IMG/VR virus record: IMGVR_UViG_3300031972_002994
Location: 1 to 33,794 of that record
Strand: one strand, 5' to 3'
From: a virus
Length of the DNA stretch: 33,794 nt
The notes under the pieces are model-generated. The model was not told the origin of the DNA. It did no database searches and saw only the letters and a program-made list of their open reading frames with translations. Positions 201 to 30,257 of the stretch are shown in pieces. The number at the start of each line of letters is the position of its first letter. Within the stretch, counting starts at the first letter, position 1. The translations under genes were made by a program, and so were the position numbers.

Positions 201-2789
201 ATGACTAAAGTTCCCTTCAGGGTTTCCGCACGCGCCGCGCGCCTGATCGGTCGCGAAAACGTAGCCACGTCGCATGGCGCGGTCACGGAACTGGTAAAGA
301 ACGCGTATGACGCCGACGCCAAGGTCTGCGCAGTGCTTTTCGTCCGACGCTGGGCCGCCCTGCCCAAGTCATTCAGTCGTCAGGAACTCTCGGCGGTCCG
401 AAATCTGTTCGCGGATGTCGACGCGATTGTCGAAGAGGTCAATGGCCGCTGGCAGCTGAAGGATGACGTTGAGGCCGCTGATGCAGCGAGACTGGCTGAG
501 TCTCTCGATCAGGTGCTCGATCTGTGGATCGTCGACAACGGGCACGGGATGTCGTCGGACATCATAAACGAACGCTGGATGGTGATCGGCACGGACGCCA
601 AGGAACTGAACGTCCGCTCACACGGTGGACGGATCGTAACTGGGGCCAAGGGGATCGGCCGCTTCGCGCTTGATCGCTTGGGCGGCGAGAGCGACCTCTA
701 TTCTGGCCAAGAAAACTCAGGCTCCATCGTCCACTGGTATGTCGACTGGTCCGATTTCGAAGGTGCCGGCAAGATCGTGTCCGACGTAGAGGCGCTGCTC
801 GAAACCGAGACCCAGCCCCTGTCGGAAGTCTATCAGACAGCTGCGCTCGCCGATTTGCTGCCCGATGCGTTGCCGAAACCCTTGGTGGGGGATGTGGTCC
901 GCAAGCCTGAAGAAGACAGTCCGGGCGAGCCCATAAGCTGGATCAAGGGTACGGCGATCCGGATCGGACTCTTGACCGACATTTGGGACGCGACCGACAG
1001 CCTTCGGCTGAAGGAGACCCTGTCCTCGCTCTTGCCTCCGATGGAGCGCGCCGACTTTGACATCTATGTCTACGATCATCGCGCTCCGGAGAAGAGTGGC
1101 TTCATCGACAACCTTCCCCCCGATCAGTTCGACTACCGGATGATCGCGAACGTCAGGGCGGACGGAATGATCCGGATCAAGCTCGAGCGCCAGGAAATCG
1201 ACGCGGAACGGATACGGCCCAGCGTCTTCGACGCGGACGCGATGAAGCAGCCCGGCTTCACGCGGGATGACTTCAAACGAGGTTTCTACGAGTTCGACAC
1301 AGATCTCAGACGGCTGATGAGGCTGGACGAGGATGAGGACGTCGGACCCTATCAGAGCGTGGGCCCGTTCGATTTCACCCTCTACTTCTTCAAGCTTCAG
1401 AACCCGACTTCGGACAACCTCAAACACTATCCGCAGAAGAATTTCGATGTCTCACGCCGGCGCGCTTGGCTGAAAAACTCGGGAGGCATCCGCCTCTACC
1501 GGGACAACTTCCGCGTCCGCCCTTACGGCGAGCCGGGCTCCCAAGCCTATGACTGGCTGCTGCTCGGTGAGCGGGTGGCCCGCAACCCGGCCGCCGCCTC
1601 CCGCGCCAGTTGGAACGTCCCGCCCCAGCAGCTCGCCGGGACCCTCTACATCACAAAGGAGGACAACCCCGGGCTCGACGACCAGTCGAACCGGGAAGGC
1701 ATTCGCAACGAACGCACCTTCTCCATCTTCCGCGATATTGTGCGGGCGTTGATCAGTACGTTCGAGTATGACCGCTCCTATATCCTCAATCAGTTCAAGG
1801 CGGCTTTTGATCGCGACAATCCGCCTCCGCCGGACGTAGCCGAGGCCCTGCGTATCGTCAGCCAGTACCGGCGCGCCGCCTCGAGTAGCGGCGAAAAGCC
1901 GGGTGCATCGACGGTGGTGCCTCCCGTTGAGCCCGAGAAGGTGACGACCGACATCGGCCTCCTTGGCGACGCCTTGGAGTCCAAAGTCCACGAGTTGGAG
2001 GCTGCCAAGGACGACAACCAAGTCCTTCGGGGCATGGCGACCTTGGGCACGATTCTGGTCTCGTTCACGCACGAACTCAAGCAGATCAAGGCGGACATGG
2101 AAGCCCGCGGCGACCGCCTAGCCAGTTCGGTTCAGGCCGTGACCGATTCTGATCGGCTTGCGGAGGTCCCGGAGCCGGCGCGGCCCGCCAGCATAATCCG
2201 ACGGATGCGCCGACAGGATGAAAAGGTAAGCCGCTGGGTGGATTTTGCCTTGGCCGCGGTATCTCCGGCCAAGAGGCGACGGCGCGTGATCGATGCGCAA
2301 ACGTACCTCCGCGGCGTCAAGGGCTATTGGGACGAGTTCCTCGTTGGCCGGAAAATCCATCTTGACGTCGGCGAGGCCGGTGAGGGCGATCTGGGCATCC
2401 TAGCCCATGAAATCGACCTCGATAGCATCTTCTATAACCTCATCAACAATTCGGTCGAAGCCTTCCTCAAACCCTCAGGCCCGGGGACTCGACAGATCAC
2501 GATCAGGGCTACGGTGACCGACGGCCGTTGGATCGACATGGACTATCAGGACAATGGCCCGGGTCTCGCTTCGACCTTCAATGTCCCCGAGGACATCTTC
2601 ATGTTCGGTGTGACGTCGAAGAAGGACGACGACCTCGGGGATTCGGGTGGCACGGGCATCGGCATGTGGCTGCTTCGAAACGTCGTTGACGACTATGGCG
2701 GCACCGTGAAACTGCTTAGCGCGCTTGGCGAACCGGGCTTCAAACTCCTTGTTCGTCTGCCGGCGTATCGCGTGACCCAGGGGGCATAG
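201..2789 (+). CDS. Dual GHKL ATPase / histidine-kinase-like sensor protein
   Basis: An 862-residue protein with two ATP-binding GHKL modules. The N-terminal one (about residues 10-160) is of the Hsp90/MORC/MutL type: N-box E30 and N34 in ELVKNAYDADA, D112-N-G-H-G-M, and G148-A-K-G-I-G-R. The middle (about 160-590) is unassigned. A charged helical stretch (about 590-620) leads to an H-box-like FTHELKQ with His624, as in histidine-kinase DHp helices, followed by a C-terminal kinase-type ATPase (N746/N749/N750, D784-N-G-P-G, G816-G-T-G-I-G). No membrane segment is seen, so it is probably cytoplasmic. The ATG at 201 is the first usable start; the ATG at 194 stops at once, and the ribosome site is weak. 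It is first in a four-gene operon and its stop abuts the next ATG. Inference: it senses a signal by ATP-driven conformational change and phosphorylates the receiver protein encoded next. The DHp assignment is by motif only. Confidence 0.85.
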   Translation: MTKVPFRVSARAARLIGRENVATSHGAVTELVKNAYDADAKVCAVLFVRRWAALPKSFSRQELSAVRNLFADVDAIVEEVNGRWQLKDDVEAADAARLAESLDQVLDLWIVDNGHGMSSDIINERWMVIGTDAKELNVRSHGGRIVTGAKGIGRFALDRLGGESDLYSGQENSGSIVHWYVDWSDFEGAGKIVSDVEALLETETQPLSEVYQTAALADLLPDALPKPLVGDVVRKPEEDSPGEPISWIKGTAIRIGLLTDIWDATDSLRLKETLSSLLPPMERADFDIYVYDHRAPEKSGFIDNLPPDQFDYRMIANVRADGMIRIKLERQEIDAERIRPSVFDADAMKQPGFTRDDFKRGFYEFDTDLRRLMRLDEDEDVGPYQSVGPFDFTLYFFKLQNPTSDNLKHYPQKNFDVSRRRAWLKNSGGIRLYRDNFRVRPYGEPGSQAYDWLLLGERVARNPAAASRASWNVPPQQLAGTLYITKEDNPGLDDQSNREGIRNERTFSIFRDIVRALISTFEYDRSYILNQFKAAFDRDNPPPPDVAEALRIVSQYRRAASSSGEKPGASTVVPPVEPEKVTTDIGLLGDALESKVHELEAAKDDNQVLRGMATLGTILVSFTHELKQIKADMEARGDRLASSVQAVTDSDRLAEVPEPARPASIIRRMRRQDEKVSRWVDFALAAVSPAKRRRRVIDAQTYLRGVKGYWDEFLVGRKIHLDVGEAGEGDLGILAHEIDLDSIFYNLINNSVEAFLKPSGPGTRQITIRATVTDGRWIDMDYQDNGPGLASTFNVPEDIFMFGVTSKKDDDLGDSGGTGIGMWLLRNVVDDYGGTVKLLSALGEPGFKLLVRLPAYRVTQGA

Positions 2790-3461
2790 ATGGTGGAAGC
2801 CGAAGAGGCGGTCAAACCGAGCATCGCCTATATTGATGAACTCGAAGACGCGCGCGCGGACTTCTTCACCGATGCCTGGCAGAGCGGGCTGTTCGAGGCA
2901 GTCCATGTCCTAGCCCCCGAACCGACACTCGAGCAGATGCTCGACAAGCTGTCTGAACTGGGGGTCGATGCGGTCATCTCGGACTTCCGGCTCACAGAGG
3001 CCGGGCCGGTGGAATACAATGGCGAGGGCCTGCTGGACGCAGTGAGCGCTAGGCGCGCGGGATTCCCCTGCTTCATTCAGACATCGCTGCCAGAAGAGGC
3101 TTTGCTTGTCGCGGACGACGTCAACCGCGTCTATTCAAAGGACCCCAATGCGGGCACCGGGCGGCAGCAATTCCTGCAGCGCATTGTCCTCCAGATTCAG
3201 AAACATCAAAGCCGCATGGCGGCTTGGCAGAGCGAGTTAGACGAACTGCTCGCGATTGATCGCAATGAGCTGAGTAGTATGCAGGTCGATCGTATTCTGG
3301 ACCTTGACCAAGCTATTGAGGAAAACATTGGCGCGGATGACCCGGTCTCCCGCCAGGTCAAGCGAGACCTGCTGAGCGGAACCCTACTGAGTCGCCAAAC
3401 CGAGCTGCTCGAGGAGACGGAAAAACTTATTGCCGACATGCGCAAGGCCCTCAATGAGTGA
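2790..3461 (+). CDS. Receiver-domain (response-regulator-like) protein
   Basis: A 223-residue protein whose first ~120 residues keep the receiver signature: acidic pair D16/E17 in YIDELED, likely phospho-acceptor D65 in AVISDFRL, T98/S99 in IQTS, and K117 in VYSKDP. The remaining ~100 residues look helical and charged, with no recognisable DNA-binding output domain, so it may act by protein-protein contact rather than as a transcription factor. The ATG follows the upstream TAG with no gap and has a GGGGG ribosome site about 7 nt away. The stop overlaps the HNH gene start by 8 nt, which suggests coupled translation. It is probably the phosphorylation partner of the GHKL/kinase protein and may gate the HNH nuclease. 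Confidence 0.82.
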   Translation: MVEAEEAVKPSIAYIDELEDARADFFTDAWQSGLFEAVHVLAPEPTLEQMLDKLSELGVDAVISDFRLTEAGPVEYNGEGLLDAVSARRAGFPCFIQTSLPEEALLVADDVNRVYSKDPNAGTGRQQFLQRIVLQIQKHQSRMAAWQSELDELLAIDRNELSSMQVDRILDLDQAIEENIGADDPVSRQVKRDLLSGTLLSRQTELLEETEKLIADMRKALNE

Positions 3462-4062
3462 GCTCGGCCCGGTCCATGTCACGAGGCCAACCCGCCGCGT
3501 CGTCGCTGAACAGCCACGATACAGCCTTTACCGCAGCGACTTGCGTGAGGACTTCGTTCAGGCTTGCGGATACTGCGGCGACGACGACGAGCGCGCGGAC
3601 CCCTCGACGTTTCACATCGACCATTTCGCGCCCAAGAAGCAGTTCCCAGAACTGACGCTGGCCTACGCGAACCTCGTCTACGCCTGCAGGTTCTGCAACG
3701 TCTCCAAGTCGAACCACTGGATCGGAACAGAGGCCGCTAGTCCGAACGACGGCGCACGGGGATTCGTCGACCCCTGTTCGGATCAGTACTCCCATCATCT
3801 CGGTCGAGACATGAGCGGCCGAATCACTGCGAAGACGCCTCTGGGCGAATATGTGATCAGGCGACTGCGCCTGCGGCTCATCCGGCATGAATTGCTTTGG
3901 AAGGCCCGCAAGGCGCGCAGCTTGCGCAGCGAGATCAGCGACCTGATTGAGGCCTACAAAGGGCGTGGCAGGCCCTCTCATGACTATGCGCCGTTGCTGG
4001 AACGCTTTTACGACCTGACCCAATCCATCGAAGACTATGAACTCCGCGCCCTTCCTCGATAG
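3454..4062 (+). CDS. HNH endonuclease with zinc ribbon
   Basis: A 202-residue protein from the ATG at 3454. A TTG at 3430 would add eight residues but lies deep in the preceding gene. The nuclease core is clear: C38-x2-C41 and C78-x2-C81 form a structural zinc site around H54-x-D56-H57, with N73 in the ALANL-like helix, giving an HNH beta-beta-alpha metal fold. The C-terminal ~100 residues are basic and helical. It overlaps the receiver gene by 8 nt and the methyltransferase gene by 26 nt. By position it is the likely DNA-cleaving effector of the operon, with the methyltransferase protecting or marking self DNA. Its substrate and whether phosphorylation controls it are unknown. Confidence 0.85.
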   Translation: MSELGPVHVTRPTRRVVAEQPRYSLYRSDLREDFVQACGYCGDDDERADPSTFHIDHFAPKKQFPELTLAYANLVYACRFCNVSKSNHWIGTEAASPNDGARGFVDPCSDQYSHHLGRDMSGRITAKTPLGEYVIRRLRLRLIRHELLWKARKARSLRSEISDLIEAYKGRGRPSHDYAPLLERFYDLTQSIEDYELRALPR

Positions 4063-5695
4063 GCGGTCCGCCATTCGACTGACTGGCGCCGTCTACACAC
4101 CCAGTGCCGTGGCGGAAGCAGTCATTCGCGTCGCGATGCAGGAACTGCCTGTGCGTCGCCTGCGTGTCCTTGAGCCGAGCGCCGGCGACGGTGCCTTCCT
4201 CGGCCAGCTGGCGAGTTTGATGGGCGAGCACGACCACGTCGCCGTCGATATCGACAGAAAGGTCGTAGAGACTCTGGCCCTGAATAGGACCGCTTGGCCG
4301 GATTCGACGCGGCTGCAAGCGCAGGACTTCGTCGAGTTCGCCTGCGATAGGCTTGAGGAGGACTTGGCCCGATTTGACCTCATCGTTGGAAACCCGCCCT
4401 TCATTCGCAAGCACAACTTCCCGCCCGCGTTCAAGGCATCGCTCGCCCGTTTGTCGGTCTTGACGAACTATCCTTTGGCGGAGCTCAAGAACAGCTGGGC
4501 GGCATTCCTCGTGGCCTCCGCCCGGCTGGTGTCCGACGATGGCGTGGTCGCCTTCGTGCTTCCGTATGAGCTGATAACAGTCTCCTATGGGCAGGCGGTG
4601 CTCAAACGCATGCTCCACGCCTTTGAACGCGTTGACCTCTTTGTTTCGGACGAGAAGGCCTTCCCTGAGATTGAACAGGACGCCGTCATCTTTGTGGGCC
4701 GCCGGGCCACGGCTCAGCCGCCAGGCCTCTACGTCCAACGGGTCAAGAAAATGTCCAATCTGGCGAGCGCCGTCGAATACAGAATGGACACGGAAGATGC
4801 TCGGCCGATGGCGTTGGACCTCAACACTTTCCTGCTTGAACCGTCGTTAATTCCCGCGCTGCGCCGGATCGAGGCCGACCTTCCGAACTTCGCGGACCTG
4901 GCGACTAGCGCCCCTGGGGTGGTTACGGCAGCCAACGACTTCTTCATTCTCAGAGATGCAGAGGTCGAACGTTTGGGGCTGTGGCCATACGTCTTGCCGA
5001 TCCTCAAGAAGCAGAGCATCACCAATCGCTCGCCGATCTTCTCGGCCCGGGATTTCGAAGCGCTCTCGCAGCGCGAGCCTTGCCGTCTTCTTTACGTCAA
5101 GGGTCCGGTCGAGGAGTTCGAGGCCGACCTTCAGGCCTATATCGCGACGGGCGTCAAGGATGGACTTCCGGACCGGTACAAATGCCGTCATCGGAAGCAC
5201 TGGTACGAGGTCCGCTTAGTCCCGAGTGCGGCAGGCTTCTTCTTCAAGCGGTCCCACGGATTCCCGAGGATCTGCGTCAATGAGGCGGACGTCCATATCA
5301 CCGACACGGCCTATGGGCTTCACCCGAAAGCGGGCCGGACCATGCGCGGGATTTGCTATTCTTTCTATAATTCGGTGACCCTGCTGTTTGCTGAGATCAA
5401 CGGCCGCTTCTACGGAGGCGGCGTGCTGGAACTGTCGCCAAGCGAACTGAAACGGCTGCCGATCGCCTATCATGAGCCGACCGATGAGGAGTTCGACGCC
5501 TTCGTTGAGATCCACAGACAGGCCAAGAACGACCCCGAACCGATCTTGGATTTCGGGGATGAGTGGCTAAGCCGGCATCCTTCGGCGGCGTCTATCGATC
5601 TTCCTGCCGTGCGGCGTGCTTGGGCCTCGGTCAGAGCACACCGGCTGCGCCACAGCAGCCGATCCAAGGCTGCGCGAGCTGCGAGCGCCGAGTAA
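4037..5695 (+). CDS. DNA N6-adenine methyltransferase (NPPF/TaqI-Eco57I type)
   Basis: A 552-residue class I SAM-dependent DNA methyltransferase. The N-terminal part has motif X (TGAVYTPSAVAEAVI, about 16-30), motif I E46-P-S-A-G-D-G for SAM binding, acidic D71 and D97 in the next strands, and catalytic motif IV N119-P-P-F122, as in gamma-class adenine methyltransferases. Residues about 250-500 would hold the target-recognition region, as in M.TaqI or type IIG enzymes. No PD-(D/E)XK nuclease motif is seen in it, so cleavage would come from the separate HNH protein. The ATG at 4037 lies inside the HNH gene, so translation is probably coupled. It is the last gene of the operon. The C-terminal tail is Arg/Ala-rich and low complexity. 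Confidence 0.88.
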   Translation: MNSAPFLDRRSAIRLTGAVYTPSAVAEAVIRVAMQELPVRRLRVLEPSAGDGAFLGQLASLMGEHDHVAVDIDRKVVETLALNRTAWPDSTRLQAQDFVEFACDRLEEDLARFDLIVGNPPFIRKHNFPPAFKASLARLSVLTNYPLAELKNSWAAFLVASARLVSDDGVVAFVLPYELITVSYGQAVLKRMLHAFERVDLFVSDEKAFPEIEQDAVIFVGRRATAQPPGLYVQRVKKMSNLASAVEYRMDTEDARPMALDLNTFLLEPSLIPALRRIEADLPNFADLATSAPGVVTAANDFFILRDAEVERLGLWPYVLPILKKQSITNRSPIFSARDFEALSQREPCRLLYVKGPVEEFEADLQAYIATGVKDGLPDRYKCRHRKHWYEVRLVPSAAGFFFKRSHGFPRICVNEADVHITDTAYGLHPKAGRTMRGICYSFYNSVTLLFAEINGRFYGGGVLELSPSELKRLPIAYHEPTDEEFDAFVEIHRQAKNDPEPILDFGDEWLSRHPSAASIDLPAVRRAWASVRAHRLRHSSRSKAARAASAE

Positions 5696-6001: not shown

Positions 6002-6301
6002 CTACATCGCCTCAGCCGTGGCGACATCGACGTCGTTCGCCGGCGTAGATATGGGGGCGTTCGCGGCCTTGCGGCGCGTGACCGTGATCGGCAGGGCAAT
6101 GCGCGGGTTCGGATTGGCGCTCTGGACGATGGTGCGCTCGATGATGACGGAGGCCACGCCGGTCCAGCCGCATTCGAGATTCTGACACTGGAGATGGGTC
6201 TCGCGATAAGTCGCGGAGATCCCGCGCGAGGATCTGGTCTTTGCGGCTTCGCCGCAGTGGGGGCAAGGCACGCGCCCGCCGTAACGCTTCATTCCGAGCA
6301 T
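6002..6301 (-). CDS. ogr: Ogr/Delta-type zinc-finger late activator
   Basis: A 99-residue protein of the P2 Ogr/Delta family, which binds upstream of late promoters and recruits RNA polymerase. The family zinc site is present: C13-x2-C16 and C39-x4-C44. Beyond the ~50-residue finger it has a longer, hydrophilic C-terminal tail. Two in-frame ATGs (6301 and 6292) share a GGGGA ribosome site; the first is slightly better spaced. It is the last gene of the tail operon, as in P2, downstream of D. Its presence fits the four TGTTGT-N13-ACAACA dyads in this window, which are probably its binding sites. Confidence 0.88.
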   Translation of the reverse strand: MLGMKRYGGRVPCPHCGEAAKTRSSRGISATYRETHLQCQNLECGWTGVASVIIERTIVQSANPNPRIALPITVTRRKAANAPISTPANDVDVATAEAM

Positions 6302-6398: not shown

Positions 6399-7454
6399 TC
6401 ATTGGGGCGTCGCGCCCGCTGCGGCGCCCAGTTCCATCTGCAGGCTGGTGCGGTAGCCGCCCGCTCCGTCGAGGCGATGGGTCGTCTCATCGATCAGCCA
6501 TTCCGCCGCGTCGATCTCAGGCTTGAATCCCTGAACCGTCACCTTTCGCTCCGGATAGAGGGCCGGGTCTCCCATCGCCAGGTTGATGGAAAACTTCGCC
6601 GCCTTGCGCTTTTGCTTGGCTTGATGCGCCTCCGCCGCCTTCCGAGCGGCGCGTTCGGTCGCGTAGGTCTTGCCCAGTCGTTTCGGATTGGACGAGGAGC
6701 CGACCGTCAGTTCTCGGCGCTGCGCGCTCGCTCGATCATGCCAAGCGGCCGTCACCCCCGAGTAGTTCTCACGCTCAGCCGACTCCCAGCGGCAGCTGTC
6801 GCCCTTTCGGCGGGTGATGGAGATCGGCGGAATGGGCTGGCCGCCGGCCGTCTCGCCGGCCCCCACGGCTGCAAACAGGAGGGTCTGGGCCTTCACCGTG
6901 GCAAGAGCGTCGTATTCCCGGCCCAGGCGGGCCAGAAGGGCGCTGTCGCTTTCTCGACCCTGCGTCAGATGCTGGATCACGATCGCCGCCATGCCGGGCG
7001 AGATCCGGGGCGTGAGCCCGTTCCGCGCTGCGATGTCGGACAGGACGGCGCCGAGGGTCGTGTTCGACCAGGTTTGTGACCGACGGCTCCTGAAGGCTCG
7101 CGTCAGGTCGGCCGACTTCGCCCGGATGGTCAGGACGTCGGGCGAGCCGCTCCAGCATCGCTCGTCCACCTTGAAGCTGCCCTTGTCGACCAGCTGCGCC
7201 GTCGCGCCGTCGCGCAACTCCAGCCAGCCGAGCTTCAAGGTGATCAAGGCGCCCGCCGGCGGGATCGACAGCTTGCCGTCATGATCCTTCAGAACAAGCT
7301 CGAGCTCGTCAGCGTCCGCGCCACGCTTTTCCGTAAGCGTCAGGCTTTCCAGCCGTGGGTTGACAGTGGCGCTGATGCTTCGCCCCTCGACGACAAGGTC
7401 GAAGACCGCCTTGCGGTGAACATAGCGCGCCGCCGCGCCGTCCGCCGTCGTCAC
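6399..7454 (-). CDS. D: Phage late control protein D (tail hub)
   Basis: A 351-residue protein matching the P2 gpD family, the hub at the baseplate end of the tail tube, structurally like gp27/VgrG N-terminal parts. The N-terminus (VFDLVVEGRSISATVNPRL) and the region around SLTLTEKRGADADELEL are typical. The C-terminus holds the usual charged stretch (KAKQKRKAAKFSIN) and an EWLIDETTHRLD motif. It overlaps U by 4 nt (ATGA), so translation is coupled, and it is followed by ogr. No damage is seen. Confidence 0.9.
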   Translation of the reverse strand: MTTADGAAARYVHRKAVFDLVVEGRSISATVNPRLESLTLTEKRGADADELELVLKDHDGKLSIPPAGALITLKLGWLELRDGATAQLVDKGSFKVDERCWSGSPDVLTIRAKSADLTRAFRSRRSQTWSNTTLGAVLSDIAARNGLTPRISPGMAAIVIQHLTQGRESDSALLARLGREYDALATVKAQTLLFAAVGAGETAGGQPIPPISITRRKGDSCRWESAERENYSGVTAAWHDRASAQRRELTVGSSSNPKRLGKTYATERAARKAAEAHQAKQKRKAAKFSINLAMGDPALYPERKVTVQGFKPEIDAAEWLIDETTHRLDGAGGYRTSLQMELGAAAGATPQ

Positions 7455-29338: not shown

Positions 29339-30257
29339 GTGGCTCTTCATACCGAACACGCCCTCGCGGACTTGCGAGGACTTTCTCTCTGCGCCGGCTA
29401 CGGCGGGCTCGACCTCGGCCTGCATATCGCCGAGCCCGGATATCGCACTGTGGGTTACGTCGAGCGGGAAGCCCATGCGGCGGCCGCTCTCGTGGCCCGG
29501 ATGGAAGACCAGGCCCTGGCTCCGGCGCCTATATGGGACGATCTGCGATCCTTTGACGGCCGACCGTGGCGCGGCCGCGTTCATATCGTCTCTGCCGGTT
29601 ATCCCTGCCAACCCTTCAGCCAGGCCGGGCGACGCCGCGGCGAACACGGCCCCCGGCACCTGTGGCCCGAGGTCGAACGGATCGTGCGCGAGGTCGGCCC
29701 CCGATGGGTCTTCCTGGAAAACGTCGAGGGCCATCTGTCCCTGGGATGTCGGGAGGTCGTCGGAGACCTTCAGCGCCTGGGTTACGGCGTCAAGGCGGGC
29801 CTGTTCACGGCGGCTGAAGCGGGCGCGCCTCACATACGGAAGCGGCTGTTCATTCTGGCCGACGCCGACGGCGCAGGATGCGGGCTATTTCCCGGACTTC
29901 GTCCTGGAGGAGACGAAGGCGGGCTTTGCCGGGCCGTTCGATGTGACGGAGGGCAGTTCGGGCCAGTTCAGCCTGGCGAACGCCGCGCGGATCTGGATGA
30001 CGATCTTCAACCTGTTGCGGGGGCTGGATGCGGTGCCGGCGAAGCCCTGCCGCCGCTCTTCGCGCCACGTCCGGGTGAGTTTCCGGCATGGGACCGGCTC
30101 CTATGTGACCGGCCTGATCTCGAACCCGCCCTTCTACGAGCTGGTGATGGGATGGCCGATCGGCTGGACCGCACCCGAGGCGCCGGTAACGGGGTTTGCA
30201 GCCTGGCTGCAGCGATCGCGTGGCGCACTCTCAGAGGCGCTGGCTGAAGACCGCTGA
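29339..30257 (+). pseudogene. C5-cytosine DNA methyltransferase, frameshifted
   Basis: The first ~170 codons from GTG 29339 hold C5-methyltransferase motifs: SLCAGYGGLDLGL (SAM), VSAGYPCQPFSQAG with catalytic C90, FLENVEG (127-129) and RKRLF. Near 29855 the family-like sequence jumps to the +1 frame: there WPTPTAQDAGYFPDF and, at the end, NPPFYELVMGWPIGWTAPEAPVTGFAAWLQRSRGAL continue as in phage methyltransferases. The first frame stays open to 30247 but with unlikely sequence. Either a base indel or a short deletion, or an undetected programmed shift, explains this. Likely non-functional as it stands. Confidence 0.75.

Follow-up and report, generated by a model that had tools for sequence, protein, structure and literature searches.

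A four-gene operon at the left edge of a P2-like prophage, encoding a MORC-like ATPase fused to a histidine kinase (HK), a predicted stand-alone receiver (RR), an HNH nuclease, and an N6-adenine-type methyltransferase (MTase), belongs to a conserved, coinherited, and mobile unit. With moderate confidence, we propose from its sequences that this unit is a mobile restriction-modification-type defense operon with a two-component switch, in which the nuclease would be gated by phosphotransfer. The window, i.e., the whole stretch of DNA analyzed, is a virus contig of 33,794 bases, whose gene content according to profile matches is that of a P2-like prophage (phrog_603 regulator, tail, tape-measure, sheath, fiber, baseplate, terminase, capsid, scaffold, and portal genes). 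The operon lies at 201-5695, as the original prediction had it: the open reading frames and our reading of the sequence agree on four genes that abut or overlap, all on the + strand, opposite to the tail genes (Table 1). It adjoins the phrog_603 gene, which we take to be ogr-like, and the G+C content of its region is 60-61%, versus 62-71% in the rest of the window.

Table 1. Predicted features of the operon and of the adjacent prophage genes in the window.
Feature	Coordinates	Strand	Description	Evidence
HK	201-2789	+	862 aa; MORC/TopoVI-B-like GHKL half (~1-540) and histidine kinase half (~578-862)	Pfam, profile matches, AF2/Foldseek, motifs
RR	2790-3461	+	223 aa; predicted receiver (D16/E17, D65, T98, K117) with helical C-terminal extension 124-222	
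HNH nuclease	3454-4062	+	202 aa from ATG 3454; H57, N73, Cys 38/41/78/81; distant PtuB/retron HNH similarity	
MTase, N6-adenine-type, M.Eco57I_C family	4037-5695	+	552 aa; NPPF 119-122 at 4391-4402	
Presumably Ogr-like transcription regulator (context)	6002-6301	-	phrog_603, 7e-23	
Presumably P2 gpD-like tail protein (context)	6399-7454	-	phrog_52, 3e-129	

Two further observations concern this prophage setting. A second methyltransferase gene of the window (29339-30247, +) is phage-type (phrog_363, 8e-55) and of a family that differs from that of the operon MTase. At two other loci (L020 and L022), a C5 MTase, an HK, and a long receiver stand directly after a tail gene that is presumably gpD-like, near the slot that the operon occupies in the window.

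The HK combines two GHKL domains with a kinase H-box, as the original prediction had read from the sequence. Pfam recognizes HATPase_c_3 (2e-12) and HATPase_c (4.7e-13), both of which are present in 10/10 HKs checked. In a profile built from 17 HK relatives, the C-terminal half resembles sensor kinases (3a0r, 1.1e-20) and the N-terminal half resembles MORC3 (6o1e, 5e-9; 5ix1, 8e-9). Searched with Foldseek, the AF2 model (mean pLDDT, 78; pTM, 0.58) leads to TopoVI-B, MORC2, and HK853/ZraS-type kinases; the TopoVI-B and MORC2 alignments, which bear on a possible S5-type domain after the GHKL domain, extend over some 630 columns with a low TM-score (0.25-0.28 of the query). A BbrUII/HgiDII restriction-enzyme NCBIfam model also matches residues 93-168 (3.1e-9), far under its cut-off. 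H624 (codon 2070-2072), N746, N750, G786, G817, G819, and G821 are conserved in 26/26 rows, and E625, D784, and G788 (the last two belonging to G1) in 25/26 each. In the MORC-like half, E30 and N34 are found in 24/24 covering rows, and D112, G114, G116, K150, G151, and G153 in 25/25. The exceptions are L049, which deviates at two kinase G1 positions, and L047, which deviates at E625 and at two HNH cysteines. Across the two-component motifs (H-box, N, G1, and G2 of the kinase; D, T, and K of the receiver), key residues are kept in all 26 rows.

The RR of the window has no credible Pfam match. Four of 11 RR relatives weakly match Response_reg (best, 0.00025), and the RR profile weakly matches solved receivers (FixJ, E 0.0015). 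In the AF2 model (mean pLDDT, 87), a (beta/alpha)5 fold precedes helices that run to the end, and D65 (codon 2982-2984), T98, and K117 lie where strands 3, 4, and 5, respectively, terminate; compared with receivers by VIA-align, mainly over residues 7-145, the model gives Z values of 14-15, with a maximum of 15.4. The D65/T98/K117 set pointed out in the original prediction is intact in 26/26 rows, and D16 is kept in 25, with E in the remaining one. An apparent loss of K117 in L032, unaligned there in 1 of the 11 rows of a first alignment, was dropped, the residue being aligned in 26/26 rows of the fuller alignment. The kept triad, the weak profile matches, and the modeled fold together mark the RR as a predicted receiver. 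Neither Pfam nor the AF2 model revealed a recognized DNA-binding domain in the RR, which disfavors an ordinary transcription-regulating two-component system.

The HNH open frame spans 3430-4062 (210 aa); its most probable start codon is ATG 3454, which makes the gene overlap the stop of the RR. Numbered from this start, the H54, D56, H57, and N73 residues of the original prediction are where it placed them, although H54 is conserved in only 13/26 rows. Conservation is strongest at C38, H57, N73, C78, and N82 (26/26) and at C41, D56, and C81 (25/26). The protein matches Pfam HNH (3.9e-9) and PtuB models (57.7 bits) and, weakly, PtuB structures. The MTase bears the predicted NPPF motif and matches M_Eco57I_C (3.5e-25) and the PADLOC MTase_II model (5e-108). 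Its family is mostly found without the other genes, so that the MTase could be an exchangeable passenger: only 5/59 viral loci carry it with other operon genes, and a plasmid search at E to 1e-30 returned 48 records, and, among the 30 matches listed, 3 can be assigned to this operon because they coincide with records found by the RR and HNH searches.

We catalogued 27 records, comprising 18 virus contigs (17 retrieved by scanning a viral collection, plus the window; this share is biased by the choice of collection), 4 genome loci, and 5 plasmids. An HK of this clade is present in 26, and it is followed by an RR and an HNH in 25, the contig of L056 ending at the HK. An N6-type MTase adjoins 24 of these 25 HK-RR-HNH sets; the remaining contig, L045, ends after the HNH. 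The co-occurrence that the original prediction called for is thus found, with the proviso that the counts of 25 and 26 overstate the number of independent cases, since L052-L054 are near-copies; repeats of one contig were counted once. The last record, L039, was added by the HNH scan; its contig starts inside the RR and carries the HNH and an M.Eco57I_C MTase. Three short, weak matches from the same scan (L042-L044) stand outside the counts.

The type and position of the MTase vary among these sets. The type seen in the window lies downstream in 12/25, and another N6-MTase subfamily accounts for 10/25, upstream of the HK in 8 and downstream, after a small regulator gene, in L004 and L028. L032 and L049 carry other N6 MTases upstream, their type being assigned by Pfam (Eco57I/N6 MTase in L032, as in L049). 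Two earlier readings were rejected. The MTase of L008 is not absent, a gene of another subfamily lying upstream of the HK there, as also in L050-L055 and L057; and the L032 MTase does not belong to that other subfamily, its score having come from its own inclusion in the model (16.7 bits when left out).

HK queries retrieved relatives from viral contigs, genomes, and plasmids. Named carriers are Gluconobacter, Mesorhizobium, a Rhizobiales isolate, Rhizobium, Ensifer, Salipiger, Bacteroides, and Deinococcus, and they span Alphaproteobacteria, Bacteroides, and Deinococcus. The core occurs on plasmids of the last five of these genera and also on bacterial genome contigs. Reciprocal plasmid searches returned four records with the RR (E to 0.01) and five with the HNH (E to 1e-8), all with this core; the Deinococcus copy was missed by the RR query. 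Among INPHARED phage records, the HK query found no match at E 1e-5. The unit is rare: around G001, the Mesorhizobium genome that carries L005, it was detected at E to 1e-25 in 1/385 genomes of the same class and in 2/146 of the same genus, G001 itself being included in both counts. Since the gene set recurs in distant taxa, across phyla, we rejected the possibility that the genes are chance neighbors.

Two of the copies are interrupted. In Salipiger profundus pTPRO7 (L030, 6451-9100), an IS66 element splits the first HK residues from the remainder, so that copy looks broken. In Rhizobium phaseoli N161 (L028, ~9760), a stop interrupts the HK frame; the RR, HNH, and MTase frames are open.

The genes also share their history. 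The distance matrices of HK, RR, and HNH correlate at 0.87-0.96 (21 records), and each correlates with that of the MTase at 0.90-0.92 (11 records); 0/2000 permutations gave values as high, in a test that set aside L028, L030, L039, L053, L054, and L056. In an HK tree of 81 rows, made by a quick method with SH-aLRT support only and excluding L028 with its broken HK, a single group with an SH-aLRT of 97 unites all 24 HNH-linked kinases with the truncated L056. Among the 57 rows without an HNH, 30 neighbor C5 MTases, Vsr nucleases, or a longer receiver, and 12 neighbor other N6 MTases.

Copies of the operon lie on prophages, on plasmids, and once between AbiE and DISARM genes. The last case, L004, is flanked by AbiEi/AbiEii and by DrmC/DrmB/DrmA, and Drm genes were seen only there. 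The defense-rich neighborhoods expected in the original prediction are thus found at this locus, but the other flanks scanned showed little: defense genes were few and, among the genes of four loci scanned, mainly those of L004. In two genomes of one genus (L005, 10001-18155; L158, 4318-12498), diverged operon copies have the same molybdopterin-dehydrogenase-type gene as a neighbor, but the orientation of the operon relative to that gene is opposite in the two; this points to a possible hotspot of insertion.

A comparison of L004 with L005 illustrates the exchange of parts. Their HK, RR, and HNH are 72%, 66%, and 70% identical, whereas the MTase is of the window type in L005 and of the other subfamily in L004 (356 bits against a model of that subfamily built without L004 and L028), with the caveat that the L004 MTase lies ~0.7 kb from the HNH, adjoining the DISARM genes, and may belong to DISARM. 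A nuclease restricted to one site would hardly survive such a swap, so it may be the MTase that confers target specificity; alternatively, the nuclease could be nonspecific. The nuclease position varies as well. In L060 (1628-6738), L062 (7838-12940), and L067 (5912-10995), an MTase-HK-RR set is followed by a metallo-beta-lactamase-fold protein (PF00753, 3/3), and the HNH appears to have been replaced by another hydrolase on the same signaling chassis. These three loci likely form a sister clade of the HNH-linked kinases, a position that has a support of only 82 in the HK tree. In L063, L086, and L087, the gene after the N6 MTase, HK, and receiver encodes a ~250-263-aa protein for which Pfam gave no match, a possible further effector.

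Kinases of the HEF_HK type and receivers of the Response_reg_2 type, 91.6% of them linked over 644 regions, have been described beside restriction-modification genes, among which HNH_2 was the endonuclease domain represented best and C5 MTases were prominent; it has been speculated that such pairs may control restriction-modification systems (Bellieny-Rabelo 2021, PMC8011034). As there described, these pairs resemble the operon in their soluble kinase, with an N-terminal HATPase_c_3 and a C-terminal HATPase_c, and in its location beside a divergent receiver and restriction-modification genes, including HNH variants. They differ in having mainly C5 cytosine MTases, whereas here an N6-type MTase and an HNH form a tight unit. 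From its sequence, the operon is predicted to be the same kind of system, in a separate clade. HEF_HK (PF19191) and Response_reg_2 (PF19192) each passed the cut-off in 0/15 records and, likewise, in 0/14 control genomes, none of which thus served as a positive control; HEF_HK was also absent from 10 HKs in a separate domain scan, and none of 11 RRs matched Response_reg_2, even at E up to 10. The C5/Vsr relatives likewise remain below both cut-offs. Sub-threshold HEF_HK matches were found in the kinases of two C5-type loci, L011 (0.006) and L024 (0.016), and in no HK of this clade; the published family thus appears closer to the C5/Vsr branch. In the HK tree, the 30 rows of that branch without an HNH have the arrangement nearest the published one. 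Apart from its operon, G001 holds a second, distant HK match (contig C23, ~116249-118737), with a sub-threshold Response_reg_2 match ~2 kb away; this locus is perhaps a pair of the published type.

The original prediction had put the set forward as a candidate new system, without recognizing it as a named one. No PADLOC 2023 model naming it was seen, the HNH and the MTase being judged on the best 25 of 82 and the best 25 of 44 matches, and no paper in the open literature, many subscription papers and all bioRxiv preprints aside, was found to name the exact gene combination; but the association of a kinase-receiver pair with restriction-modification genes was published in 2021 (PMC8011034). That MORC-like GHKL proteins accompany restriction-modification genes, which the prediction had taken as known, was indeed reported in 2008, with paraMORC1 possibly co-occurring with HNH nucleases (Iyer 2008, PMC2292703). 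The MORC-type N-terminal GHKL ATPase half and the restriction-modification setting are common to both; as far as those loci are described, the operon differs by an additional receiver and a full histidine kinase half, and there is no helicase among the four genes.

In Detocs, a phage cue drives a kinase-receiver relay that feeds an effector. Detocs is a three-gene defensive two-component system whose best-described member has a PNP effector (PMC11249213). The operon would share with it the defensive relay feeding an effector, and it differs from the Detocs described there by its four genes, with an HNH instead of the PNP effector, a MORC-like kinase half, and an MTase. Pfam finds no PNP domain in the four proteins, and Detocs members with other effectors stay possible matches. 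A nuclease adjoining an adenine MTase in one operon recalls type II restriction-modification, from which the unit differs by the relay proteins alongside and by the exchange of MTase type without exchange of the nuclease. The HNH resembles PtuB of Septu and of retron PtuAB, but the HK has no PtuA match, there is no reverse transcriptase among the four genes, and the PtuA matches of the HNH protein itself, at residues 21-177 and 35-161 of the 210-aa frame, coincide with its HNH region. As for DISARM, no Drm match was found for the HK and RR, nor among the best 25 of 82 matches of the HNH and the best 25 of 44 of the MTase. Histidine-kinase-like ATPase and receiver domains also appear among the predicted systems of DefensePredictor whose domains have no validation as defensive; the likeness was judged by the description in the legend of Fig. 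6F only (2026, PMC13092281). WonAB, with an ABC ATPase and a PD-(D/E)xK nuclease, was set aside as unrelated from its published description (PMC12137116).

In the mechanism that we propose, the MORC/TopoVI-B-like half of the HK would act as an ATP-driven clamp sensing a cue from foreign DNA or infection, and the kinase half would autophosphorylate H624 and pass the phosphate to D65 of the RR, as the intact and conserved motifs suggest. Through its helical tail, the RR may activate or release the nuclease by acting on the HNH protein, while the adenine MTase would mark resident DNA. The MTase may also be the source of target specificity, since the HK-RR-HNH core stays in place when the MTase type changes. 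The HK may have alternative roles, acting on other receivers or as a phosphatase. To our knowledge, no restriction enzyme is known to be switched by a kinase-receiver relay, and searches of the open literature brought up no counter-example. More tentatively, the operon could be one form of a phosphorelay-gated restriction family, in which a MORC-like clamp-kinase would detect unmodified DNA, a stand-alone receiver would switch on an exchangeable nuclease (HNH or metallo-beta-lactamase-fold), and an exchangeable MTase, not the nuclease, would determine the choice of target.

Other functions can be envisaged. A phage cue might drive the relay to abortive infection, in the manner of Detocs, with the HNH cutting the nucleic acid of host and phage alike, whatever its sequence, and the MTase being a separate epigenetic or self-limiting factor. 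The precedent of a three-gene defensive two-component system (PMC11249213) speaks for this, as do the similarity of the HNH to PtuB-type retron/Septu effectors, its closest among the matches listed, and the replacement of the putative effector in the three metallo-beta-lactamase-fold loci. We nevertheless consider it rather unlikely, as an N6-type MTase, which an abortive nuclease would not need, adjoins nearly every copy. An improbable alternative is that the relay times gene action and not each cut: the HK would sense the loss or dilution of methylation, and the RR would delay or release the nuclease, sparing a new host. The published speculation on the control of restriction-modification systems (PMC8011034) is compatible with such timing, and copies on prophages and plasmids would be expected to enter unmodified hosts; but an RR in which no DNA-binding domain is recognized would be no ordinary transcription regulator.

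It is also conceivable, although very unlikely in our estimation, that the operon is cargo serving the prophage, excluding rival phages or shielding the prophage's own DNA, and not bacterial defense as such. The position next to the ogr-like gene and the 18 of 27 records that are virus contigs, a proportion biased by the choice of collection, fit this possibility. Against it stand the copies on the plasmids of five genera and on bacterial genome contigs and, moreover, the exclusion of rivals would still count as defense.

We therefore retain, at the strength given above, the reading as a restriction-modification-type operon with a nuclease gated by phosphotransfer. We regard the original prediction, in which a phosphorelay gates the HNH and the MTase marks self, as supported in part. 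Being a four-gene set with clear point mutants, it should be simple to test. If true, the proposal would join bacterial signaling to DNA restriction, and prokaryotic MORC-like proteins, kin of the eukaryotic chromatin ATPases, would gain a testable role as sensors of foreign DNA.
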